From: Bacillota bacterium
GTDB taxonomy: Bacteria > Bacillota > Limnochordia > Darwinibacteriales > DTU012
Direction of reading: 5' to 3'
Length of the DNA: 60,267 nucleotides
NCBI GenBank assembly: GCA_012520795.1
Contig: JAAYNP010000024.1
Location: forward strand, 1 to 60,267
Below the pieces are notes generated by a model. It did no database searches and was not told where the DNA came from. It was given only the letters and a program-made list of their open reading frames with translations. The first letter of the stretch is position 1. Every line of letters starts with the position of its first letter. This document shows positions 32,751-60,267 of this stretch, one piece after another. The position numbers were made by a program, and so were the translations under genes.

Positions 32751-34283
<1,533 letters not shown>

Positions 34284-34741: not shown

Positions 34742-36172
34742 ATGGGATCGAAGTTGAGTTTGCTTGCCTTTGATTTGGGTGCATCCAACGGCAGGGCGAT
34801 CGTAGGCAGGTATGACGGTGAACGGCTGGATCTGGTGGAAGTACACAAGTTCCCCAATGGGCCGGAGAATATCCACAGCCACCTCTACTGGAACATCTTG
34901 GATCTGTTCGCCCAGATCAAAACGGGATTGGTCAAAGCTTGCAACGCAGTAGACGGCAAAATTGACAGCATGGCCATCGATACCTGGGGTGTTGACTACG
35001 GCCTGCTGGATGCCAATGACACCTTGCTTTCCAATCCATACCATTATCGGGACAAACGCACCGATGGACTTCTGGAAGAGATCTATTCCAGAATCAGTGC
35101 CGAAGAAGTCTATGCCAACACCGGGATCCAGTTCATGCAGATTAACACCTTGGTCCAGCTCTATGCCGAGCGCCGTTGGCGGCCCTGGGTTTTGGACAAC
35201 GCCAAAAGCCTGCTGTTCATCCCCGATCTGCTCAACTTTTTCCTGACGGGGCAGAAATATAACGAATACACCATCAGCTCGACTTCACAGCTGCTCCATC
35301 CATCGGCCCATACATGGGTGGAACAGATTTTCAAAGCCCTTGAAGTGCCTGCAGACCTGATGCAGCCTTTGGTGTTCCCGGGGGCTGTAATTGGCACTGT
35401 AACTGAACTGATTAAGGCTGAAACAGGGATCGGCTGGGATCTTCCGGTGATTGCCGTTGGCAGCCATGATACCGCATCAGCGGTGGTGGCTGTACCCTTT
35501 ACTGACAGGGAAAACAGTGTTTACATCAGCAGCGGCACCTGGTCCTTGCTGGGAGTGGAACTGGAGACCCCTGTAATCAACGAGCATTCCCGGCGGGAGA
35601 ACTTCACCAATGAAGGAGGCGTGGGGAAGACCATCCGTTTCTTGAAGAACATCAGCGGGTTATGGTTGATTCAAGAGTGCCGGAGAATCTGGCAGCGGGA
35701 TGGCCTGGACCTGGCCTGGGATCAAATCAGCCGGGCCGCTGAACAAGCCCCTTTGAAGGCGCTGATCGACCCTGATGATCCGCGCTTCCTCAATCCGGAC
35801 AATATGCCGGAGGCTATTGCAGCCTACTGCCGGGAAACCAATCAGGATATACCGGAAAACTACGGTGAAATGGCCCGCTGCGTCTATGAAAGCCTGGCGG
35901 CAAGCTATCAGAAGACCATTACCAGGCTTGAGGTAATGATCGGCCGCAGGATCGAGACGATTCATATGGTCGGCGGTGGGATTCAAGCTGAAATTCTGTG
36001 CCAGTATACAGCCAACGCCACCAACCGCAAAGTGGTTACCGGCCCCATTGAGGCAACGGCCATGGGTAATATGCTGGGGCAATTGATGGCCAAAGGAGAG
36101 ATTAACAGTCTTGGGGAAGGCCGGGATCTGATCCGTCGGTCGGTTGCACTGAAGACATACCTGCCCCAGTGA
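34742..36172 (+). CDS. rhaB: Rhamnulokinase
   Basis: Phosphorylates L-rhamnulose to L-rhamnulose-1-phosphate. 476 residues of the FGGY family with strong RhaB features: LAFDLGASNGRAIVG (ATP phosphate loop), SMAIDTWGVDYGLLD (catalytic aspartate), HYRDKRTDG, VGSHDTASAV, ISSGTWSLLGVE and IHMVGGGIQAEILCQYTANA. Last gene of the seven-gene operon, closed by a terminator. rhaA is 17 kb upstream and no rhaD aldolase is in view. Some RhaB enzymes also accept L-fuculose, which would let one kinase serve both isomerases in this window; that is an inference. Confidence 0.95.
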   Translation: MGSKLSLLAFDLGASNGRAIVGRYDGERLDLVEVHKFPNGPENIHSHLYWNILDLFAQIKTGLVKACNAVDGKIDSMAIDTWGVDYGLLDANDTLLSNPYHYRDKRTDGLLEEIYSRISAEEVYANTGIQFMQINTLVQLYAERRWRPWVLDNAKSLLFIPDLLNFFLTGQKYNEYTISSTSQLLHPSAHTWVEQIFKALEVPADLMQPLVFPGAVIGTVTELIKAETGIGWDLPVIAVGSHDTASAVVAVPFTDRENSVYISSGTWSLLGVELETPVINEHSRRENFTNEGGVGKTIRFLKNISGLWLIQECRRIWQRDGLDLAWDQISRAAEQAPLKALIDPDDPRFLNPDNMPEAIAAYCRETNQDIPENYGEMARCVYESLAASYQKTITRLEVMIGRRIETIHMVGGGIQAEILCQYTANATNRKVVTGPIEATAMGNMLGQLMAKGEINSLGEGRDLIRRSVALKTYLPQ

Positions 36173-44167: not shown

Positions 44168-44199
44168 AGAGATAGTTATCAAGCGGGAGGGAAGTTTTG

Positions 44200-46002
44200 A
44201 TGTTGGATTCGAACAAGTGGCGTTTGCGAGGGCAGCTTCCGAAGGTAGGCATCCGGCCCATAATTGATGGCAGGCGTAAAGGTGTCAGGGAATCACTGGA
44301 AGATCAAACCATGGGTTTGGCACAAGCAGCTGCCAGATTGATCAGTGAGAACTTGAGGTATCCCGATGGCAGCCCTGTCCAGTGTGTCATTGCCGATACC
44401 TGTATTGGCGGTGTGGCTGAGGCGGCCATGGCAGCGGACAAGTTTGCCAGAGAAGGAGTTGGAGTGTCCTTAAGCGTTACTCCGTGCTGGTGCTACGGCA
44501 GTGAGACGATGGACATGGATCCCTTCATTCCCAAGGCTGTGTGGGGGTTCAACGGCTCTGAACGCCCGGGAGCGGTGTATTTGGCTGCAGTATTGGCTGC
44601 CCACAACCAAAAGGGTTTGCCTGCATTTGGCATATACGGCCGCGATGTCCAAGATGCGGCTGATGACACTATTCCTGCGGATGTAGCTGAGAAGATTCTC
44701 CGATTTGTGAAGGCAGGGTTGGCTGCGGCCATGATGCGCGGCACCTCATATTTGTGCATGGGTTCTGTATCCATGGGGATCGCAGGCTCAATGGTCAACG
44801 AGGATTTGTTCCAATGCTATCTAGGCATGCGCAATGAGTATATTGACCAATCGGAATTCCTCCGCCGGATAGAAGTGGGGATTTATGATCATGACGAGTA
44901 TGAACGGGCATTGGCCTGGGTGAAAGCCAACTGCCAGGAGGGCCCGGATGTCAATCCGCCTGAATGGAGGGCATCCCGGGAGCAAAAGGACAAAGATTGG
45001 GAATTTGTGGTCAAGATGACCTTGATTGCCCGCGACTTGATGATCGGTAATCCCAAGCTTGCAGAGATGGGCTTTGGGGAAGAAGCTTTGGGGCGGAACG
45101 CCTTGGCCGCCGGCTTCCAGGGTCAAAGGCAGTGGACCGATCACTTCCCCAACGGCGATTTCATGGAATCAATCCTCAATTCGTCGTTTGACTGGAACGG
45201 CATCCGCCAGCCTTTTATTGTGGCTACTGAAAATGATTCGCTGAACGGTATCTGCATGATTTTGGGCCATTTGTTGACCAATACCGCGCAGGTATTTGCC
45301 GATGTCCGTACTTACTGGAGCCCCCAGGCTGTCCAGCGGGTTACAGGGCACAAGCTTGCCGGCAGGGCGGCTGACGGCGTGATTCACCTGATCAACTCCG
45401 GTTCGGCAGCCCTTGATGGGTCCGGTGAGCAGAGCCGGGACGGGCAGCCGGTGATCAAACCATTCTGGGAGATTAGCGAAGAAGAAGTGAAAAGGTGTCT
45501 GGCGGCAACACCGTGGCGTCCGGCAAACCGGGGCTATTTCCGGGGCGGCGGATTTTCGGCCAACTTCAAGTCCCGGGGAGGTATGCAGGTCACACTTACT
45601 CGTTTGAATGTAGTCAAAGGCTTGGGCCCGGTACTGCAGATTGCTGAAGGCTATACTGTGGATCTGCCTGACAAAGTGCACCAGATTATCAATGACCGCA
45701 CTGATCCCACCTGGCCTACAACCTGGTTCGTACCAAATACCACAGGCAAAGGAGCCTTCAAAGATGTCTATTCTGTGATGGCAAACTGGGGTGCGAACCA
45801 CGGTGCTTTCAGTTATGGCCATATCGGTGCCGATTTGATTACGCTGGCATCCATCCTGAGGATACCAGTGGCCATGCACAATGTGCCCGAGGAGAAAATC
45901 TTCAGGCCCAGCTATTGGACAGCCTTTGGAACTCAGGATTTGGAAGGGGCGGACTTCAGGGCATGCAAAGCCCTGGGCGCGCTGTACGGGCAGTACCGCT
46001 GA
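44200..46002 (+). CDS. fucI: L-fucose isomerase
   Basis: Interconverts L-fucose and L-fuculose (and often D-arabinose and D-ribulose), Mn2+ dependent. 600 residues from the ATG at 44200 (GGGAGG nine bases upstream), normal length. FucI blocks are [80 protein letters not shown] and the C-terminal [19 protein letters not shown]. It forms a single-gene unit between ung and a terminator. No fuculokinase or fuculose-phosphate aldolase is near; the GH95 fucosidase at 7.4 kb and the RbsD/FucU-like protein at 34.3 kb are likely partners. Confidence 0.95.
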
Positions 46003-49173: not shown

Positions 49174-50217
49174 CTATTCGGATTTGACTTTGAATCGGTA
49201 CACTGTGGTATGGCTGTAGACTGTGCCCGCCCTCAGGACCGGGGAGGGGAAATGGCTGTAATTGGGCGAATTTGGAAAATGCTGTGTTTCCAGGCACAAG
49301 CCGCTGTGCAGGCCATAACCGGCTCCATTCTTCCCGGCAACCGGCCCTTTCAGGAAGTTGCCTGAATAGAACTGAATTCCGGGCTTGGTGGTATAGACTT
49401 CCATTAAGCGCCCGGATGTGGGCTCATGCAGTTCGGCGGCGAGGTACAGCTTGGACCCTGGTTCGCCGTCATAAGCCACCTTCCGGTTCAACACCCAATT
49501 GTGATCAAAACCGCTGCCGTTTTTGATCTGGGGACGGTTAAAGTCCAGGTTGTCTTTGATTGCAGCCAGTTTCCGAAAATCCATTGGCGTTTGGGCAACC
49601 GTGGCAATCTCTCCGGTGGGTATCGTCTGGTCGTCGATGGGAGTATAGAAATCAGCATGGATTCTCAGCCGGTGATCAAGGATGTCTCCCTGATCGTGCC
49701 CCTTAAGGTTAAAGTAGGCATGATTGGTAAGATTGACGATTGTGTCCTGATCGCTTACGGCCCAATAGTCAATCCGAAGCTCGTTGTGATCAGTCAAGGT
49801 GTAAGTTACCTGTACATAGAGGCGCCCCGGATAGTTCTCTTCCTTGTCTGCACTGATATATTCAAGTTTAAGCTGGTTTTTGCTTACGGCCACCGGAGTC
49901 CAGATTACTTTGTCAAATCCGCGCCCACCGCCATGCAAATGGTTGGGCCCATCATTCTGGGCCAGTTCGTAGCGTATTCCGTCCAAGCAGAATCGGCCTT
50001 TTTCAATCCGATTTGCATAACGGCCGATTATGGCACCCAAGTAAAAGGTGTCTGTTTCGTACTCGCTGACGGTATCATAGCCGAGCACTACATCACCGCA
50101 GAGCCCCGATTTATCCGGTACAGACAGAGAAAGGATAATTCCGCCGTAATTCGTGATTCTGCAGGCAATCCTGTCATTGCTTAAGGCAAAGGTTTTAACC
50201 TCTTTGGTGTTCAACAT
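49174..50217 (-). CDS. galM: Aldose 1-epimerase (galactose mutarotase)
   Basis: Interconverts alpha and beta anomers of galactose, glucose and related aldoses. 347 residues from the ATG at 50217, where alignment with GalM proteins begins; the frame is open to a GTG at 50250 that overlaps a GGAGGTGA sequence. Landmarks are NYGGIILSLSVPDKSG, GRYANRIEKGRF, NDGPNHLHGGGRGFDK with an active-site histidine, NLTNHAYFNLKGH with the second histidine, and the C-terminal GLCLETQHFPNSPN with the catalytic glutamate. A good promoter lies upstream. No galK, galT or galE is adjacent. Confidence 0.93.
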   Translation of the reverse strand: MLNTKEVKTFALSNDRIACRITNYGGIILSLSVPDKSGLCGDVVLGYDTVSEYETDTFYLGAIIGRYANRIEKGRFCLDGIRYELAQNDGPNHLHGGGRGFDKVIWTPVAVSKNQLKLEYISADKEENYPGRLYVQVTYTLTDHNELRIDYWAVSDQDTIVNLTNHAYFNLKGHDQGDILDHRLRIHADFYTPIDDQTIPTGEIATVAQTPMDFRKLAAIKDNLDFNRPQIKNGSGFDHNWVLNRKVAYDGEPGSKLYLAAELHEPTSGRLMEVYTTKPGIQFYSGNFLKGPVAGKNGAGYGLHSGLCLETQHFPNSPNYSHFPSPVLRAGTVYSHTTVYRFKVKSE

Positions 50218-50277
50218 AGGCTTTCCACAGCAGCAGGCTGTGGCAGTCACCTCCTGGCAGTCTTTTCCACCATTACA

Positions 50278-50362: not shown

Positions 50363-50502
50363 TATTGATTTTATATTAGATATTGCTTGGATCTTCGTTG
50401 TTGTTTGGAGGATAATCAGGGTTATGGGCGAATAGAGTATCTAGGCAGTAACCAGACGTAGATTAGATGTGGTTCTTGGACGTTTATGAAGGGCGGTGTA
50501 GC

Positions 50503-51780
50503 ATGCCAAGCCTCTCGCAGTGGCCAAAACGTGACGATTTGTACCGCTACCTGGACTCCATCCTGTCGGCGTCACCAGATCCAGTGGCCTTGATTGCACT
50601 TTTGATCATTAATCTGGACAACTTCCGAGATTTATGTGAGCTTTTCGAATACCGGGACATTGAAGAGTTTTTGGCGCAGGTTGGACAAATTATCATGAAT
50701 TCATGCCCCGATTACAGTTACATGGCATGGCTGGGCTCTGATGAATTTGCAGTTGTACTGCCGAAAGCGACCAAAGAAGATGTGGAGCGCACAGCGGCGG
50801 CCATTTGTCAGAATCTCGCCGAACCGATGGCTTTTCATGAAAGGCAAGTTCACATTACCGGAAGTTTGGGGTACGCGTTGTTACCTGATGATGCCAAAGA
50901 CCGCTATGAAATCATCAAGAATGCAACGATGGCCATGAACTGGGTTAAGAAACAGGGTAAGAACGGATATGCCCGATTCGAGGCTGCCATGGGCCAACAG
51001 GTGAACCGGAAACTGAAACTGATAAACGATTTTGGCACAGCCTTGGAGCAAGGCCAGTTCAGACTCCAATACCAACCGCAGGTCAGTGTGGCCAGCAGGA
51101 GCATTGTCGGCGCCGAAGCGCTGCTGCGCTGGCAGCATCCTGAGTTCAACCTGATTCCCCCTTTGGAATTCATTCCCCTTGCAGAAGAATCCGGATACAT
51201 CCATCATATAGGTGAATGGGTATTGTATCAGGCAGCCAGTGATTTCAGTGCCTGGCTTCAGAAAGGAATTATACTGGAAAGATTGGCAGTGAATGTGTCC
51301 ATTGTCCAGCTGCAGAAACCAGATTTTGCCAAACGTTCCCTGCACATTCTGGAAGAAACCCATTTGGATCCGGCCTATTTGGAATTGGAAATAACGGAAA
51401 GCCAGTCAATGGATCTTCCCAAAGTAAGGCCCCAGATCGAGCAGCTGCGCAATCACGGGGTCAGATTTGCGATTGATGATTTTGGCACGGGCTTTGCCTC
51501 GTTGAATCACCTGCGCTACATGGGGTTTGACACTATCAAGATTGATAAGGCCTATATCCACAACATTCTTACCAACAGCCGGGATCAGGTTATTGTCAAT
51601 TCGATTCTCAATATGGCCAAGATGCTTCGGCTTGGAATTATTGCCGAGGGAGTTGAGACCGACGATCAATGGCAGTATATTGTGCAGGCGGGCATCAAGG
51701 AGGTGCAGGGATATTACTGCAGCCCTCCTGTGGATCAGCCGGTGTTTGAGGAACTGGTGCGAAAGGAGTTCTGTTTTTAG
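50503..51780 (+). CDS. GGDEF-EAL protein (probable c-di-GMP phosphodiesterase)
   Basis: 426 residues from the ATG at 50503. There is no membrane or sensor domain, only a GGDEF domain (about 15-165) followed by an EAL domain (about 180-426). The GGDEF signature is GSDEF (residues 77-81) with no RxxD inhibitory site before it, so cyclase activity is doubtful. The EAL domain looks complete: E205-A-L, NVSIVQLQKPDF, ELEITES, DDFGTG near 325 and IKIDKAYI. It most likely hydrolyses c-di-GMP, with the GGDEF part perhaps binding GTP. No c-di-GMP riboswitch is seen upstream. A terminator separates it from the downstream lyase cluster. Confidence 0.9.
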   Translation: MPSLSQWPKRDDLYRYLDSILSASPDPVALIALLIINLDNFRDLCELFEYRDIEEFLAQVGQIIMNSCPDYSYMAWLGSDEFAVVLPKATKEDVERTAAAICQNLAEPMAFHERQVHITGSLGYALLPDDAKDRYEIIKNATMAMNWVKKQGKNGYARFEAAMGQQVNRKLKLINDFGTALEQGQFRLQYQPQVSVASRSIVGAEALLRWQHPEFNLIPPLEFIPLAEESGYIHHIGEWVLYQAASDFSAWLQKGIILERLAVNVSIVQLQKPDFAKRSLHILEETHLDPAYLELEITESQSMDLPKVRPQIEQLRNHGVRFAIDDFGTGFASLNHLRYMGFDTIKIDKAYIHNILTNSRDQVIVNSILNMAKMLRLGIIAEGVETDDQWQYIVQAGIKEVQGYYCSPPVDQPVFEELVRKEFCF

Positions 51781-51832
51781 AGCTTAGGCACTTATCTATA
51801 AGTCATTCCTGACGATGATTCTTTTGCTTAGG

Positions 51833-51863
51833 CAGGGTGTACACAGCGTGCACTCTGTTTTTT
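51833..51863 (+). terminator. Terminator of the GGDEF-EAL gene
   Basis: CAGGGTGT (51833-51840) / GCACTCTG (51850-51857), an 8-bp stem with two G-T pairs, then T6. Confidence 0.65.
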
Positions 51864-51956: not shown

Positions 51957-54701
51957 ATGAGAATTCAGTTCCGGGTTATGATCACAGTATTAGCCGCAGT
52001 AGTTGGCGTGGGTTTACTCAGCATTTCCTGTCTTGGGCAGACCGATCTTGATGCCTTGATGCAGGGATTTCTTTCCGGCAACTTCGCTGAATCCTCAAAG
52101 GCTCAGGATGCCCTAGTGGAGTTGGGCGATACTGCTGTACCGAAAATGGCAGAGATTCTGCAGCGTAACCGCGACCAGTGGAACCGCGTCAAGGCAGTAA
52201 ATGTGTTGGGAAGGATCGGTACGGCCAACGCCATTGAGGTATTGGTTACAGGGATTGCGGACAGCGACAGCATTGTCCGGGACAGCACAGCCGGAGCCAT
52301 AAAAAAGCTGGATCAATCGGGAAAGGTAATAGCTACCCGGCACCTGGCTTCCTATTTGGTACATAATCAGTTGACTGCCCGCAGTGCCGCAGGCAAGCTG
52401 CTTGAAGAGTTAGGTGTTGGGAAGGCGGATATTGCCCCAGGGCTGGCAGGCGTGATTGCCGCCGGGCAAGGACAGCAGCGGGAACTGGCCTTACGGGAAC
52501 TTGCCAAGCTCGGTAGAGAGGCAAGCGGTGTCATTAGGGATCTCTTACCTCTGGTGAACCTTAGTGATCCAAATCTGCGGAAAGCGTCGCTGGAAATACT
52601 GGAAACCCTTACCTTTATCGGCACCAGCGACAACCGCGATCTGGTGGATATTTTGATGGATTTGCTGTTCAGCATCGATTTCGATCTGCGCCAGGAAGCG
52701 ATATGGGGACTAAGGCGCATGCAAGTAGGCGGCCGCGAAATGGTGGAGCCGGTGATGGCACGCTTGATTGGCTCCGATTATGTGGGAGATCGAGAGCTCG
52801 GCGTGGATATTTTGATTCAATTGGCGATCACTCAGCCTGAAGCTGTGGAGGCTTTAAAGGAGATTGCTCAGAAAGTTGATTGGGACTTGCCCATCGCCCA
52901 GCAGGCGGTCGCCGGGCTGAAATCCCTCGTGCCGGCGCTGGAATACCATCTCGACAGGGGATTGATCGCTGTACTGACTGAGGAGGGTGTGTTTTTAAGC
53001 TGGCGGCTGTTGGGCACCGAGCCTTTGGATCTTGGTTTTCATATCTACCGCAATGGTGAACCGATCACCTCGCAGCTGGTTGTCAACAGCACAAACTACT
53101 TAGACCTCCAGGGCACGGTCCATGATCAATATACAGTTGTACCAGTCCTAAGCGAACCCAAGACGGAGCCAAACCAGGCAGTGGGTGTATGGCCGCAAAA
53201 CTACCTAAGCATACCTCTGGCAAGGCCGGAAGGCGGGGTTACGCCCGCTGGTGAGCGGTACCGCTATTCCGCCAATGACGGGAGCGCCGCTGATCTGGAC
53301 GGAGACGGGCGTTATGAAATTATCCTCAAATGGGATCCTTCCAACGCCAAGGACAATGCCCATGATGGTTATACCGGGAATGTCTATATTGATGCCTATA
53401 CATTGGAAGGGGAGATGCTTTGGCGGATCGACTTGGGGAAGAACATCCGGGCGGGAGCCCATTATACTCAGTTTATCGTCTATGATCTGGATCTTGACGG
53501 CAAGGCTGAACTAGTTGTCAAGACTGCCGATGGCACGGTCGACGGCCAGGGCAATGTAATTGGCGACCCGAATGCCGATTACCGGGATTCCAGAGGGAGG
53601 ATCCTGAGAGGGCCTGAATACCTTACGGTCTTTGACGGCGAAACGGGCAGGACTATGGCTACTATCGATTATAAGCCGCTCCGGGGTAATGTGGGCAGCT
53701 GGGGAGACGGATATGGCAACCGCTCTGACCGCTTCCTAGCGGGTGTGGCTTATCTGGATGGCGTGCGCCCGAGCGTAATCATGGCCCGGGGTTATTATAC
53801 ACGTACTGTTTTGGTAGCTTACAATTGGGAGGACGGAGAACTGAAAGAAGTCTGGACCTTTGATACAGCCAGTGATCCAGCCTTGAGAAGCTGGGAAGGC
53901 CAGGGTAACCATCAGCTGTCAGTGGCGGATGTGGATTACGACGGCAGGCAGGAGATCATCTATGGTGCCATCGCCATTGATCATGACAGCACCGGGTTGT
54001 ATAACACCAGATTGGGCCACGGCGATGCCCTCCATGTGGCTGATCATGATCCCGGCCGTGTCGGTTTGGAAGTCTGGGCGGTTCACGAGTCGGTGTCTGG
54101 GATGAACCTGAGGGATGCCAGGACCGGGGAGGTGCTATGGGGCGTTCCCACAGGTTATGATGTCGGCCGCGGTGTGGCGGCCAATATCGATCCCCGCCAC
54201 AGGGGCAGTGAGGCGTGGGCCAGCGGTTCTCAACTGATGGATATTGACGGCAATGGGATCAGCCGTACGGTCCCTTCCATGAACTTCACTATATGGTGGG
54301 ACGGAGATCTGCAGCGGGAGCTGCTTGACGGTACCGCTATCAGCAAGTATGACTGGGAGCGGGATACAATCGTCGCGCTTCTGTCGCCAAGGGAGGTGGC
54401 CAGCAACAACGGCAGTAAGGCGACGCCAACCCTGCAGGCGGACCTGTTCGGTGATTGGCGGGAAGAAGTTGTCTGGCGCACTCATGACAGCGGTGAGCTG
54501 AGAATATATACGGCAACGGATTTGACTGAACACAGAATGTACACACTGATGCACGATCCCATGTACAGGGTGGCAGTGGCCTGGCAGAATGTTGCTTACA
54601 ATCAGCCGCCCCACCCAAGTTTCTATGTGGGCGAGGATATGGAACCGCAGGTTTATCATCCAGGATCGATTAAGGGTTTTCTGGAAGAAATAGGATACTA
54701 G
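51957..54701 (+). CDS. HEAT-repeat + PL11 rhamnogalacturonan lyase, copy 1
   Basis: 914 residues. A signal peptide (residues 1-~28, ending LLSISCLGQ; the cysteine might be lipidated) is followed by about 290 residues of HEAT-type helical repeats (LVELGDTAVPKMAEIL, VNVLGRIGTANAIEVL, then more to ~320). From about residue 326 (LEYHLDRGLIAV) to the end runs a complete family 11 polysaccharide lyase like Bacillus YesW/YesX, which cleaves the rhamnogalacturonan I backbone. Calcium-type DxDxDG loops (DLDGDGRYEI, DLDLDGKAEL, DVDYDGRQEI) and the GHGDALHV, FGDWREE and AWQNVAYNQPPHPSFYVG motifs are present. Known PL11 proteins start at the lyase domain, so the HEAT part is an unusual addition. First of three tandem paralogues. 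Confidence 0.93.
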   Translation: MRIQFRVMITVLAAVVGVGLLSISCLGQTDLDALMQGFLSGNFAESSKAQDALVELGDTAVPKMAEILQRNRDQWNRVKAVNVLGRIGTANAIEVLVTGIADSDSIVRDSTAGAIKKLDQSGKVIATRHLASYLVHNQLTARSAAGKLLEELGVGKADIAPGLAGVIAAGQGQQRELALRELAKLGREASGVIRDLLPLVNLSDPNLRKASLEILETLTFIGTSDNRDLVDILMDLLFSIDFDLRQEAIWGLRRMQVGGREMVEPVMARLIGSDYVGDRELGVDILIQLAITQPEAVEALKEIAQKVDWDLPIAQQAVAGLKSLVPALEYHLDRGLIAVLTEEGVFLSWRLLGTEPLDLGFHIYRNGEPITSQLVVNSTNYLDLQGTVHDQYTVVPVLSEPKTEPNQAVGVWPQNYLSIPLARPEGGVTPAGERYRYSANDGSAADLDGDGRYEIILKWDPSNAKDNAHDGYTGNVYIDAYTLEGEMLWRIDLGKNIRAGAHYTQFIVYDLDLDGKAELVVKTADGTVDGQGNVIGDPNADYRDSRGRILRGPEYLTVFDGETGRTMATIDYKPLRGNVGSWGDGYGNRSDRFLAGVAYLDGVRPSVIMARGYYTRTVLVAYNWEDGELKEVWTFDTASDPALRSWEGQGNHQLSVADVDYDGRQEIIYGAIAIDHDSTGLYNTRLGHGDALHVADHDPGRVGLEVWAVHESVSGMNLRDARTGEVLWGVPTGYDVGRGVAANIDPRHRGSEAWASGSQLMDIDGNGISRTVPSMNFTIWWDGDLQRELLDGTAISKYDWERDTIVALLSPREVASNNGSKATPTLQADLFGDWREEVVWRTHDSGELRIYTATDLTEHRMYTLMHDPMYRVAVAWQNVAYNQPPHPSFYVGEDMEPQVYHPGSIKGFLEEIGY

Positions 54702-54733
54702 CGTCAGTATAGACTGGACAGGGAGCTGAAGCG

Positions 54734-57490
54734 ATGTCAAGGTTAAAGTGGACTGTGATTTTGGTGCTGATTGCACTGCTGCCAATCGTTGCTGCGGCCG
54801 AGGAACCGCCGGTTGACCAAGAATATATATCAAAACTGATGACGGATCTCCGCTCACAGAATTTCGGCGTAGCCTTAAAAGCTCAGGAAGCGCTAATCGA
54901 AATCGGGGAACCGAGCATCCCGCATTTGCGGATCCTGTTAAGCCGCACCCAGGATCGCTGGGAGAAGATGAAAGTTATCGCTGTCCTTGGGGGGATCGGC
55001 AGCGAGGCAGCTGTCCGGGCTTTGCTGAGTGTCATTGGCGATCCGGAGCCTTCAGTACGCGATGCCGTTGTATCTGCCGCCAAAAACCTCGATCCAGAAC
55101 AGGCGCAGGCCGCTGCACCGCTCTTTGTCGAGCATTTGGTCAGTGATCGGAAAGAAGCGAGGGATACGGCGGGCGAAGCGCTGCAGGCTATGGGCATAAC
55201 AAAGGCAAGGCTGGCGGATATCTTGACTGAGACCATCGTGGACGCATCTGGCAGCAGGCGCCGGAATGCTCTGCTTGAATTGGGGAAACTTGGCTCTGAG
55301 GCAGCCCATGCTGTGCCCCAACTGCTGCCGCTGGTTGAAGCAGCCGAGTTTGAAGAAGCCTTGCAGATACTCGAAGCTTTATCCAGGATAGGCAGCCCAA
55401 CTATCCTGACTCGTGCTGTTGAGCTGGTTGAGCCGATGATTCTCTCTGAGGATTGGGCAGTCCGTCAAGAGGCGATTCGAGTAATGCAGCAGTTAGGGCT
55501 TGATGGTGAGCCGATGATTGCGCCTGCGGTTAAACTTCTGGCCAGCGGGGACGAGGCAGAGCAGTTTTTCGGAATTGATATTCTGGCTCATATAGGCATT
55601 TCGCAGGGTGCAGCTGTGAATCAGCTTGCTGAAGTGCTTGCTGATTCCAGTCACGGCCATGCTTTGCGGTGGAAGGCCTTTAAAGCCCTGCAGAGCTTGT
55701 ATTCACAGATGGAGTACCATATTGGCCGGGGCTTTACCGCAGTCACAACCGATGAGGGAGTCTACCTCGGATGGCGCTTGTTGGGTACTGATCCCTTTGA
55801 CTTGGGATTCAACATTTACCGCGATGGCGTGAAGTTAAACGAGAGCCCGATTAAAACCAGCACCAATTATCTCGATCCCGACGGCAGCCCCGATGCCCGC
55901 TATGTCCTGGCAGTGGTGGATCACGAGGGAGAGACGGTTGCTGCAGAAACCGCGCCTTGGCAGCAGAACTACCATACCATTCCACTGCAGCGCCCTCCGG
56001 GAGGCAGGACTCCAAACGGCGAGGATTACCAGTATTGGGCCAACGATGCCAGTGCAGCAGATTTGGATGGAGACGGAGAGTATGAAATCATCCTGAAATG
56101 GGAGCCGTCAAACGCCAAAGACAATTCGATCCGGGGTTATACCGGGACTGTCTTCATTGATGCCTATAAACTGGATGGGACTTTAATGTGGCGTATTGAC
56201 ATGGGGCGTAACATCCGGGCCGGGGCTCACTACACACAGTTTATCGCCTATGATCTCGATGGAGACGGGCAGGCGGAGGTTGCTGTGAAAACAGCTGACG
56301 GTACCGTGGATGGAACCGGGCAAGTGATTGGGAACCCAAACGCTGATTACCGCAACAGCCAAGGCTTGATCCTCTCCGGGCCGGAATACCTGACCATTTT
56401 TGATGGGGAAACCGGAGCTGCTTTAGTCACAATCGATTACGAGCCGCCCCGGGGAAGTGTTACCAGCTGGGGTGACAACTACGGTAATCGTTCTGACAGG
56501 TTTCTGGCAGGAGTGGCCTACCTGGACGGCAGCCGGCCAAGTTTGATCATGTCCCGAGGTTACTATACCCGCACCGTGATCGTGGCCTACAACTGGCGCG
56601 ATGGCGAACTGACAAAGCTGTGGACATTTGATACGAACCAGCCGGGATTATCTGGTTATGCCGGGCAGGGTAACCATCAGCTTTCCATTGCTGATGTGGA
56701 TGGAGACGGCAGAGACGAGATTGTTTTCGGCGCTATGACCGTTGATAATGACGGCAGGCCCTTGTACAATACCGGATTTGGCCACGGAGACGCTCTTCAT
56801 GTGGGGGATTTTGATCCCCGCCGCCCTGGATTGGAAGTGTTTGGCGTCCATGAGAACCGGCCCCATCCCTCCGGCATCAATTTCCGGGACGCGGGAACCG
56901 GCGAGGTGATCTGGGGTGTGCGCACAGAGTATGATGTGGGGCGCGGATTAATCGCCGACATTGACCCCAATTATCCCGGTGCTGAGGCCTGGGCGACCGG
57001 CACTTCCGGCAATGTAAGGTGCGCTGACGGCGAAACGCTGACAATTGCCCGCCCATCAGTCAATTTTGCCATTTGGTGGGATGATGATCTGCTGCGGGAG
57101 CTTTTGGATGATATTACCATTACCAAGTGGGACTGGAATACCAGGCAAATTGTACAGCTGCTGTATGCCCAAGGCTGCGCTTCCAACAACGACACCAAGA
57201 AAACACCCGCATTGACCGCGGATTTGTTTGGAGATTGGCGGGAAGAAGTAGTATTCCGAGCCAACGGCAACCGGGAACTGAGGGTTTATACGACTACGGA
57301 TCTTTCAGAGCACCGGATCTATACCTTGATGCACGATCGGCAGTACCGGGTGGCTGTGGCCTGGCAAAATGTAGCCTACAACCAGCCGCCGCATCCGAGT
57401 TTTTATATCGGCCCGGATCAGCCGCCTCCCACTTATAACCCTGGGTTCATCCATAATGCGATTCAGCAATATGGTGAGGAGTTTCAGTGA
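54734..57490 (+). CDS. HEAT-repeat + PL11 rhamnogalacturonan lyase, copy 2
   Basis: 918 residues. Clear signal peptide (about 1-22, ending VAAAEE). HEAT repeats occupy about 28-320 (LIEIGEPSIPHLRILL, IAVLGGIGSEAAVRALLSVI). The PL11 domain begins near residue 326 (MEYHIGRGFTAV) and keeps the DLDGDGEYEI, DLDGDGQAEV and DVDGDGRDEI calcium-type loops, RAGAHYTQF, GHGDALHVGD, FGDWREE and the AWQNVAYNQPPHPSFYIG end. The gene starts 33 bp after copy 1 with GGGAG upstream, so they share a transcript. The lyase part is very similar to copies 1 and 3, the HEAT part much less so. Exported; anchoring is unknown. Confidence 0.93.
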   Translation: MSRLKWTVILVLIALLPIVAAAEEPPVDQEYISKLMTDLRSQNFGVALKAQEALIEIGEPSIPHLRILLSRTQDRWEKMKVIAVLGGIGSEAAVRALLSVIGDPEPSVRDAVVSAAKNLDPEQAQAAAPLFVEHLVSDRKEARDTAGEALQAMGITKARLADILTETIVDASGSRRRNALLELGKLGSEAAHAVPQLLPLVEAAEFEEALQILEALSRIGSPTILTRAVELVEPMILSEDWAVRQEAIRVMQQLGLDGEPMIAPAVKLLASGDEAEQFFGIDILAHIGISQGAAVNQLAEVLADSSHGHALRWKAFKALQSLYSQMEYHIGRGFTAVTTDEGVYLGWRLLGTDPFDLGFNIYRDGVKLNESPIKTSTNYLDPDGSPDARYVLAVVDHEGETVAAETAPWQQNYHTIPLQRPPGGRTPNGEDYQYWANDASAADLDGDGEYEIILKWEPSNAKDNSIRGYTGTVFIDAYKLDGTLMWRIDMGRNIRAGAHYTQFIAYDLDGDGQAEVAVKTADGTVDGTGQVIGNPNADYRNSQGLILSGPEYLTIFDGETGAALVTIDYEPPRGSVTSWGDNYGNRSDRFLAGVAYLDGSRPSLIMSRGYYTRTVIVAYNWRDGELTKLWTFDTNQPGLSGYAGQGNHQLSIADVDGDGRDEIVFGAMTVDNDGRPLYNTGFGHGDALHVGDFDPRRPGLEVFGVHENRPHPSGINFRDAGTGEVIWGVRTEYDVGRGLIADIDPNYPGAEAWATGTSGNVRCADGETLTIARPSVNFAIWWDDDLLRELLDDITITKWDWNTRQIVQLLYAQGCASNNDTKKTPALTADLFGDWREEVVFRANGNRELRVYTTTDLSEHRIYTLMHDRQYRVAVAWQNVAYNQPPHPSFYIGPDQPPPTYNPGFIHNAIQQYGEEFQ

Positions 57491-57521
57491 TTTGATTAAT
57501 GACTAAGAAAGGAGTGCTGGT

Positions 57522-60158
57522 ATGCGTAAAGCTGTGGTAGCAGTTTTGATAATCACCATAGCCTGGCTCAGCAGCGCACTGATCCAGGCGGCGGAAGCGG
57601 ATGCACTTTCCAGCCTGATTGAAGATTTGCTCAGCTCCAATTTCGTGGTATCCACCAAGGCGTCCGACGAACTGGCAGGCATGGGCACAGAAGTGATTCC
57701 CCGCATCGCAGAAGATGTCTTGACGGATCCCGCCTGGGCGAACCGGTTCAAGGGGATCACTGTATTGAAAAATATGGGGGCAGTGGAAGGAATACCGCAT
57801 CTGATGCATCTTTTAGACGATGAACAGCAGCGGGTCCGCACCTATGCCCGTGAAGTTGTTGATGGGATTGCTGCCGCCTGCGGTGAAGCCGCCGAACAGG
57901 TTCTTGCTCAATTACTGGTGGCAGAGAAGGCGGTTGTGCGCAGTACGGCGAAAGAGCTTTTGAATAATGCTGGTTGGACGAAGGGTGAAATTGAGGCGGG
58001 CATCATACAAGCTCTGCAAGGGCAGGATCCAATTGAAAGAAGGGTAGCAATCGAGCTGTTGAGCCTGGAAAACTACCGGCACCGTACCTTTTTTGACCAA
58101 GTGGCTTCATTGATCAGCGATCCTGAACCTATGGTACAAAAACAAGCTGTCAAAGGCCTAAGTGTCCTCGGGTTTACTCCGGAGGAGATTTTTGGCCAGA
58201 TCCAAGCTCAGCTGCTTGCTGACAAGCCCGATTGGGACGTTGTCACGGAACTGTTTACCCAAATGGTGCAGGCTGACCACGCAGCGGCTCAGATTCTGAT
58301 GGATATAATAACCGATCAGAGCCGGGATCAGTCTTTGCGCAAGGCTGCATATGACGGGTTGGCCGTGGCCGTGCCTCAACTTGAGTATCATCTCGACCGG
58401 GGTTTGGCGGCGGTCAAGGTGGATGGCGGAGTGTACTTGAGCTGGCGCTTGTTGGGGACCGATCCCTTTGATCTTGGGTTTAATGTGTACCGGGATGGGG
58501 TCAAGATCAACTCAGCGCCGATCGTTTCGAGTACCAATTATCTTGACCCGGAAGGGGCGCCGGAAGCAAACTACTGCATAACCGCCGTCATTGACGGGGT
58601 AGAGGTTGAGCAATCCGAGACAACGGCAGTGCTTCCCCAGGCGTATATTGCCATTCCCTTGGAGCCGCCGCCGGGCGGGCGCACTCCGGATCGCGTCTCG
58701 TATTCCTACACAGCTAACGATGCCAGCGCTGCCGATTTGGACGGCGACGGCCAATATGAGATTATTTTGAAGTGGGATCCCACCAATGCCAAAGATAATG
58801 CCCACAGTGGTTACACCGGCAATGTATATCTCGATGCCTACAAGTTGGATGGTACAAGACTGTGGCGGATTGATCTGGGCCACAACATCCGGGCAGGCGC
58901 TCACTACACCCAGTTTATGGTTTATGATTTCGACGGCGACGGCAAAGCGGAACTCGCTGTCAAGACAGCCGATGGCACCGTAGACGGTGTAGGTAATGTG
59001 ATCGGTGATCCCACCGCCGATTACCGGAATTCAAGCGGATATGTTCTTGCCGGGCCGGAGTACCTGACTATGTTTGACGGTGAAACAGGAGCAGCCTTGG
59101 CCACAATTGAATACATACCACCGCGGGGCAATGTCTCCGCTTGGGGCGATGGTTACGGCAACCGGGTGGATCGTTTTCTGGCAGGCGTGGCCTATCTTGA
59201 TGGCGTAAGGCCCAGTCTGTTGATGGCCAGGGGGTACTACACCCGGGCGGTGATCGCTGCATTCAACTGGGTGGACAAGCAATTTGTCCCGGTTTGGACT
59301 TTTGACAGCAATGATCCCGGCAGCTATATTGCAGCGGGGCAGGGCAATCATCAGCTGTCGGTGGCCGATGTGGACGGCGACGGCAAGGATGAGATTATAT
59401 ACGGTGCAGTGACTATTGACGATGATGGAACCATCATGTATGCAACCGGGCTGGGGCACGGTGATGCGCTGCATGTATCGGATATTGATCCCAGTCGGCC
59501 TGGTTTGGAGGTATTTGCCGTACATGAACCTGTACCGAACACTGCCGGGATTGAACTGCATGATGCCCGGACTGGGGAAATCCTCTGGGGCATCCCCACA
59601 GATTATGACGTGGGCCGGGGCATCAGCATCAATATTGATCCCAATCACTACGGCAATGAGTGCTGGGCATCGCGGAGTCCCTTGTTTAATGCTAAGGGTG
59701 AAGTTATCTCCCAAAGTGTCCCCAATTCCATCAACCATGCAATCTGGTGGGACGGGGATCTGCTGCGGGAACTGTTGGATCACACCGGCACGGGCGGTGC
59801 AGGCAAAATCGACAAGTGGGATTGGGAGAACAGGCGGACGGTTAATCTTGTGATTTTCGGCGGCACCTCATCGAACAACGGAACCAAGGGCAACCCATCA
59901 CTAACCGCGGATATCCTTGGCGACTGGCGGGAAGAGGCTGTCTTTAGAAGAAATGACAACCGGGAACTGCGGATCTACCTGACTACACATCCCACCGAAC
60001 ACCGCCTGTACACATTCATGCATGACCGGCAGTACCGGGTGGCCATTGCCTGGCAGAATGTGGCCTACAACCAACCGCCGCATCCAAGCTTTTATGTAGG
60101 CGACGACATGGAGCTTCAGGATTTCCATATAGGACAGGCTTACCGGGTACTGGATTAG
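57522..60158 (+). CDS. HEAT-repeat + PL11 rhamnogalacturonan lyase, copy 3
   Basis: 878 residues. Signal peptide about 1-25 (ending LIQAAEAD). The HEAT region is shorter (about 28-280), by roughly one repeat compared with copies 1 and 2; LAGMGTEVIPRIAEDVL and ITVLKNMGAVEGIPHLM are typical repeat units. The PL11 domain starts near residue 288 (LEYHLDRGLAAV) and is complete, with DLDGDGQYEI, DFDGDGKAEL, DVDGDGKDEI, GHGDALHVSD, LGDWREE and the conserved C-terminal AWQNVAYNQPPHPSFYVG. The ribosome binding site is AAAGGAG, 32 bp after copy 2. A terminator follows, closing a three-gene unit. Confidence 0.93.
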   Translation: MRKAVVAVLIITIAWLSSALIQAAEADALSSLIEDLLSSNFVVSTKASDELAGMGTEVIPRIAEDVLTDPAWANRFKGITVLKNMGAVEGIPHLMHLLDDEQQRVRTYAREVVDGIAAACGEAAEQVLAQLLVAEKAVVRSTAKELLNNAGWTKGEIEAGIIQALQGQDPIERRVAIELLSLENYRHRTFFDQVASLISDPEPMVQKQAVKGLSVLGFTPEEIFGQIQAQLLADKPDWDVVTELFTQMVQADHAAAQILMDIITDQSRDQSLRKAAYDGLAVAVPQLEYHLDRGLAAVKVDGGVYLSWRLLGTDPFDLGFNVYRDGVKINSAPIVSSTNYLDPEGAPEANYCITAVIDGVEVEQSETTAVLPQAYIAIPLEPPPGGRTPDRVSYSYTANDASAADLDGDGQYEIILKWDPTNAKDNAHSGYTGNVYLDAYKLDGTRLWRIDLGHNIRAGAHYTQFMVYDFDGDGKAELAVKTADGTVDGVGNVIGDPTADYRNSSGYVLAGPEYLTMFDGETGAALATIEYIPPRGNVSAWGDGYGNRVDRFLAGVAYLDGVRPSLLMARGYYTRAVIAAFNWVDKQFVPVWTFDSNDPGSYIAAGQGNHQLSVADVDGDGKDEIIYGAVTIDDDGTIMYATGLGHGDALHVSDIDPSRPGLEVFAVHEPVPNTAGIELHDARTGEILWGIPTDYDVGRGISINIDPNHYGNECWASRSPLFNAKGEVISQSVPNSINHAIWWDGDLLRELLDHTGTGGAGKIDKWDWENRRTVNLVIFGGTSSNNGTKGNPSLTADILGDWREEAVFRRNDNRELRIYLTTHPTEHRLYTFMHDRQYRVAIAWQNVAYNQPPHPSFYVGDDMELQDFHIGQAYRVLD

Positions 60159-60201
60159 TATCGGGAGGAATTCAGCGGCTAGCGTGGCCTTAAGATGATT
60201 G

Positions 60202-60231
60202 GAGCTCGGCGATGTGACAGAGCTCTTTTTT
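60202..60231 (+). terminator. Terminator of the PL11 cluster
   Basis: GAGCTC (60202-60207) pairs with GAGCTC (60220-60225), then T6. Confidence 0.7.
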
Positions 60232-60267
60232 CGTGTGCCCGGCATGTCTACCGAGCCGATGGGTTGA

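Follow-up and report, generated by a model that had tools for sequence, protein, structure and literature searches.

Three adjacent genes near one end of the analysed window (a stretch of 60,267 nucleotides that constitutes a whole contig, contig 116, of a 2.37-Mb assembly of 154 contigs) encode exported rhamnogalacturonan lyases of family PL11 with an N-terminal HEAT alpha-solenoid, and the same kind of arm is carried by unrelated exported enzymes, mostly pectinases, of this lineage, an uncultured family that probably belongs to the Bacillota. We hold the architecture, its single origin and the wider distribution of the HEAT arms to be very well supported. For the arm we favor, at a probability of roughly 0.45, an extracytoplasmic role in positioning the enzyme and contacting other proteins. 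PL11 itself is a known family; what is new, within the scope of our tests, is its combination with HEAT repeats and the occurrence of such arms in several enzyme families of one lineage. Where a polysaccharide-degrading enzyme acts is decided by its accessory modules. The HEAT arm adds a new type of building block for the processing of pectin, one that is present lineage-wide and overlooked when these proteins are annotated by their catalytic domain alone.

The three-gene cluster and its proteins

The three genes, referred to as A, B, and C (Table 1), are separated by intergenic gaps of 32 bp (A/B) and 31 bp (B/C), matching the gaps of about 32 bp reported in an earlier note on this DNA. Each start codon is preceded by a ribosome-binding-site-like motif, and each protein begins with a hydrophobic export segment. 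The earlier note had read every gene as a signal peptide followed by HEAT repeats and a complete PL11 lyase. This reading was correct, with exact coordinates and frames and with the domains recovered by Pfam, by AlphaFold (A and C), and by Foldseek (C). The proposed HEAT length of 250–290 residues applies to C (approximately 262 residues) but is too short for A and B (approximately 300 residues).

Table 1. Coordinates and layout of the HEAT-PL11 genes, their flanking features, and a fused HEAT pectinase elsewhere in the genome.
Feature	Position	Strand	Layout or remarks	Basis
HEAT-PL11 protein A, 914 aa	51957..54701	+	export signal ~1–27; HEAT solenoid ~28–324; RGI_lyase beta domain 331–412; RGL11_C propeller 416–897	ORF, Pfam, AlphaFold, PDB sequence match
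HEAT-PL11 protein B, 918 aa	54734..57490	+	signal peptide ~1–22; HEAT ~26–326; PL11 325–896	ORF, Pfam
HEAT-PL11 protein C, 878 aa	57522..60158	+	signal peptide ~1–23; HEAT solenoid 28–283; PL11 290–865	ORF, Pfam, AlphaFold, Foldseek
GGDEF-EAL protein	50467..51780	+	upstream neighbor, conserved in the genus	Pfam, synteny
Terminator-like hairpin, then T run	51830..51861	+	upstream of A, end of GGDEF-EAL gene	-19.7 kcal/mol, z -2.65
Terminator-like GAGCTC hairpin, then six T	60201..60229	+	downstream of C	fold z -0.10
HEAT-PL1-HEAT-CE8 protein, 1597 aa	L049:2555-7348 (contig 109 of the window's genome)	-	exported	

In all three proteins, Pfam detected HEAT_2 repeats (8e-13, 1e-17, and 8e-14 for A, B, and C, with 49–65 bits against a curated cut-off of 27.7 bits), the RGI_lyase beta-sheet domain (2e-24 to 3e-29), and RGL11_C (1e-243 to 1e-250, over the full length of the model), in this order. 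With RGI_lyase and RGL11_C both full length, A, B, and C belong to PL11. The search of the N-terminal region returned HEAT (HEAT_2) and no known PL11 accessory domain, and no SLH or CBM domain was found in the three proteins by Pfam. Structure prediction of A and C as single proteins agreed with this order: the AlphaFold2 models (mean pLDDT 85.0 for A and 85.5 for C), whose input alignments consisted of the window proteins and PL11 domains from named genomes, contain an unbroken series of helices at residues 28–324 in A and 28–283 in C, followed by the lyase beta-propeller. A Foldseek search with C retrieved YesX, YesW, and the B. licheniformis PL11 enzyme as top matches (TM-score by target 0.94–0.97) and next the solenoids of alphaRep, PP2A PR65, importin-alpha, and YibA. 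On the sequence level, A matched PDB entry 4cag with 1.5e-242, the structures nearest to the lyase part were those of the B. licheniformis enzyme, YesW, and YesX, and the HEAT parts matched designed alphaRep and armadillo proteins and one bacterial HEAT protein. The N-terminal part of A, B, and C is a HEAT alpha-solenoid, and hydropathy periodicity in this part gave no significant signal. YesW and YesX of B. subtilis and the B. licheniformis enzyme (2z8r, 2zuy, 4cag) resemble A–C in the whole catalytic part, with about 60% identity and conserved substrate residues, but their solved chains start at the lyase domain and have no HEAT arm.

The alignment identified in A, B, and C the NxKDN motif, the propeller Asp, the Arg of DVGRG, the Lys of NNxxK, and the Tyr of AYNQPPH; the roles of Arg, Lys, and Tyr in the PL11 substrate site have been described (PMC8787155). 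In the substrate-site motif of B, NNG is replaced by NND, and the same holds for the B orthologues of three of four species. Since the residues that hold the substrate are present, all three proteins are expected to be catalytically complete RG-I lyases. A and C lack the insertion of YesX (WGIDPPGNDGMSY), which we take to be the cause of exo action in that enzyme, and endo action is expected of both on this basis. A fourth HEAT-PL11 protein, D, in which the NNGxK motif of the substrate site is lost, is encoded in the congeneric genome G004 (L029:2563-5376, reverse strand); a gene fragment with CBM_4_9 lies next to it. The window's genome also contains, on contig 138 near ABC transporter genes (L031:6741-8606, reverse strand), a gene for a HEAT-free protein that resembles PL11 but is highly divergent and lacks the canonical residues of the site. 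This protein is conserved in the congener G001 (L032).

The earlier note had placed terminators at 51833–51863 and 60202–60231 as a frame of the cluster. Hairpins are visible by eye at both positions, but a fold more stable than that of shuffled sequence was obtained for the upstream one alone, and a pattern scan for terminators listed neither. The contig ends 109 bp past gene C (60160–60267), with the terminator-like hairpin in between, and further genes may follow downstream. Upstream, the GGDEF-EAL gene is a conserved neighbor; in G001, another gene lies between it and A. Elsewhere in the window, genes for an alpha-L-arabinofuranosidase (32757–34283), an FGGY sugar kinase (34742–36172), an L-fucose isomerase (44197–46002), and an aldose epimerase (49174–50250) are consistent with the use of plant-wall sugars.

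Distribution and origin of HEAT-PL11

The window's own genome (G000) was compared with four congeneric genomes (G001–G004). The three-gene cluster is present in four of these five genomes, with gene content and order unchanged and the same GGDEF-EAL gene alongside in G001, G003, and G004; G002 gave no PL11 match. Since the whole cluster is kept in three other species, it cannot be a product of chance or of an assembly error. Orthologues are 76–91% identical in the PL11 part and 42–66% identical in the HEAT part, and the corresponding values for the paralogues are approximately 60–69% and 19–43%, with the arm of C only about 22–24% identical to those of A and B.

Among 398 genomes sampled evenly across the phylum, 27 matched RGI_lyase, in some cases weakly, and HEAT-PL11 was found only in the own genus and in the two genomes examined from another class (G111 and G152), each with one such gene. 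PL11 frames of 750–1819 aa in other families of the phylum were considered as further candidates but, in spite of their length, contain other modules or none. A sample of named genomes, which comprised the best 80 of 583 confirmed PL11 candidate loci found by full-length alignment and was the extent to which Planctomycetota and Verrucomicrobiota were covered, contained no HEAT arm in any of its 84 PL11 frames. The multi-modular exported PL11 and PL1 enzymes of Paenibacillus and Bacillus (1500–2300 aa) are likewise large lyases with extra modules, but no HEAT arm match was obtained for the PL11 enzymes of these genera among the frames of this sample. None of 21 plasmid records with PL11 covered 80% of the query, none of 12 among the matches listed reached the body of the arm, and viral contigs contained no relatives. 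The architecture is thus missing from every examined PL11 outside the two lineages. Searches of 5.39 million open-access papers brought up no account of HEAT arms on PL11 enzymes, pectate lyases, pectin methylesterases, or CAZymes generally, in line with the claim of the earlier note that an extracellular HEAT scaffold is not a known PL11 partner.

When 109 PL11 domains were placed in a maximum-likelihood tree, the HEAT-PL11 proteins, 15 of 15, grouped in one clade (SH-aLRT 98), with the enzymes of Paenibacillus and Bacillus as the nearest group. Genomes resembling Paenibacillus belong to the phylum sampled here, which is on this ground presumably the Bacillota. Inside the clade, the proteins of G111 and G152 were the sister group of A+D, B, and C, the paralogues of the genus. 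The grouping of all HEAT-PL11 proteins in one clade points to one fusion followed by triplication, and the simplest reading of the tree would be a single HEAT-PL11 fusion with a tandem triplication before the genus diversified. Either ancient descent or transfer between the two classes could explain the presence in both. In G111 and G152, the HEAT-PL11 gene lies near genes for GH106 rhamnosidase-like and GH65-like proteins (L030:10722-18912 and L154:1869-12047), and G152 encodes downstream a propeller protein with weak similarity to RGL11_C. The co-directional arrangement of HEAT-PL11 and the GH106 rhamnosidase-like gene in G111 is consistent with the use of RG-I.

HEAT arms on other exported enzymes

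A HEAT_2 profile search of close genomes, combined with reading of the ORFs, showed that the HEAT arm is a general accessory of unrelated exported enzymes of the families PL11, PL1, CE8, PL4, and GH16. The partnering that the earlier note had singled out is therefore not peculiar to PL11. HEAT-PL1 proteins (pectate lyases) are encoded in G000 (contig 7), G001 (three genes), G003, G004, G005, G008, and G111, so that the second class is represented among these other HEAT enzymes too. Their assignment to PL1 is based on a PDB match to 9buj (“Pectate lyase”) and on similarity to NCBIfam PelZ, the Pfam pectate-lyase model being weak or silent. HEAT-CE8 proteins (pectin methylesterases) occur in G001 and G008, HEAT-PL4 proteins (rhamnogalacturonan lyases) in G001 and G003, and a HEAT-GH16 protein in G001. 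In G004, a HEAT region occupies the center of a beta-helix protein, and G001 encodes a further CE8 protein of 626 aa whose N-terminal region has no Pfam HEAT match and is weakly related to the arms of HEAT-CE8. HEAT-PL1 in the families f35 and f98 had been suggested by frame length, but other modules or none were found there, and the PL1 candidates in G021 and G023 carry a different N-terminal module.

G001 encodes HEAT-PL1 and HEAT-CE8 in tandem (L196), whereas G000, G003, and G004 have them as a single HEAT-PL1-HEAT-CE8 chain, so that every catalytic unit retains its own arm either way. In G008, a HEAT-PL1 gene is directly followed by a gene (L204:2596-3795, forward strand) for a HEAT protein that stands alone and bears an export signal; this protein is related to the arm of the neighboring HEAT-PL1 (126 bits) and is a candidate partner. 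The arms of the different enzymes are mutually related, and that of PL4 is collinear with those of PL11 (blastp 2.7e-23, hhalign 99.4%). Cytosolic HEAT regions of this lineage, namely those of QueG and an ECF sigma factor, shared with the exported arms short repeats only (E at least 0.002) and are no close kin of them. CpcE/CpcF, NblB, QueG, PP2A PR65, and alphaRep (HEAT/PBS-lyase HEAT) have the same fold and repeat type as the arms, but they are cytoplasmic or designed proteins, and none is an N-terminal arm on an exported polysaccharide lyase. The ECF sigma factor, encoded in G001 (L194:905-2887) and G007 (L207), has an unusual architecture with a long C-terminal HEAT region and is apparently cytosolic. 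The same genomes further encode pectinases without HEAT repeats (a PL1 lipoprotein, a CE8 protein without a signal, and the divergent PL11), so that this class of activity does not depend on the arm.

Possible functions of the arm

The arms are under purifying selection, with dN/dS ratios of approximately 0.09–0.14 (0.03–0.06 for the PL11 part) in the comparisons that allowed an estimate of dS. The ratios are rough because dS is near or beyond saturation, so that only the contrast is usable. Across four orthologues, 39–51% of the hydrophobic but only 19–35% of the polar arm positions were invariant. Nearly all arms are acidic (net charge -10 to -34, pI about 4.4–5), contain few aromatic residues (1–6 Trp per arm), and have no match to CBM families in Pfam; the number of residues ahead of the catalytic domain varies by enzyme from 264 to 611. 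The combination of acidity, few aromatics, and variable polar positions speaks against a pectin-binding arm as well as against a single dock conserved among the arms.

A solenoid arm that is common to five unrelated catalytic families and kept even upon gene fusion points to a common function outside the cytoplasm. As a rigid, elongated structure, the HEAT solenoid would position its enzyme and provide protein contacts, keeping the catalytic domain away from, or against, a partner in the envelope or matrix. Several pectinases would thereby act near the cell, and the contacts with the partner would evolve quickly. The low polar conservation of the arms fits this contact module and a bare spacer equally well, and a passive role, in which the solenoid extends, shields, or stabilizes the lyase and binds nothing, is the next most probable, if doubtful, alternative. 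Fast evolution around a preserved hydrophobic core and the variable arm length would be expected of such a spacer, but not the long-term retention of the arm by unrelated catalytic folds across two classes, and for a spacer the stand-alone exported HEAT protein of G008 would be superfluous.

Pectinases with a shared accessory are known from the Clostridium cellulosome, in which unrelated enzymes carry one non-catalytic module (PMC4319962). The dockerin-bearing PL1, PL9, and PL11 (Rgl11Y) enzymes of that system parallel the HEAT enzymes in having one kind of module on several unrelated pectinases, but their module is a dockerin that binds cohesin, whereas here it is a HEAT solenoid. No dockerin was found in A–C (Pfam) or across seven genomes, and the HEAT-PL11 system is thus not a cellulosome; a cohesin-bearing scaffoldin would lack anything to bind there. 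The same absence leaves the dockerin's role vacant for the arms, which according to the earlier note could bind each other or a common scaffold in a dockerin-free multi-enzyme pectinolytic complex. Such an assembly would be in keeping with the three adjacent HEAT enzymes and their very short gaps, with the same module on the complementary enzymes PL11, PL4, PL1, and CE8, with the fusion of HEAT units in one chain, and with the free HEAT protein that adjoins a HEAT enzyme in G008. However, a shared dock should conserve its polar positions, which are variable in the arms even among orthologues, and the arms of C and A/B have diverged strongly, so that we regard this assembly as rather unlikely. 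Still less probable is that the solenoid is a carbohydrate-binding module with pectin or a different wall polymer as its ligand, a possibility also raised in the earlier note. CBMs are frequent among the accessory modules of pectinases, PL11 included, and solenoids offer long grooves, but an acidic arm with few Trp residues would be a poor match to a polyanionic ligand, the polar positions are unconserved, and no CBM family was matched.

Positioning and protein contact outside the cytoplasm remain the preferred function of the arm, and binding of pectin by the arm itself is less likely. A broader proposal, which we put forward only tentatively and consider doubtful, is that dedicated exported HEAT solenoids replace CBM, dockerin, and SLH modules and recruit PL11, PL4, PL1, and CE8 enzymes either to one partner that they share or to one another. 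If true, this would be a second, dockerin-independent way to organize polysaccharide degradation.

The compartment in which the arms act depends on the cell envelope. SLH proteins exist elsewhere in the window's genome, and one of them, encoded on contig 143 (L284:846-2150), combines SLH with a coiled coil and a C-terminal membrane segment and resembles Omp-alpha. A diderm envelope is therefore possible, and “exported” may mean periplasmic; the Omp-alpha-like protein is a possible hint at an outer membrane in this lineage.
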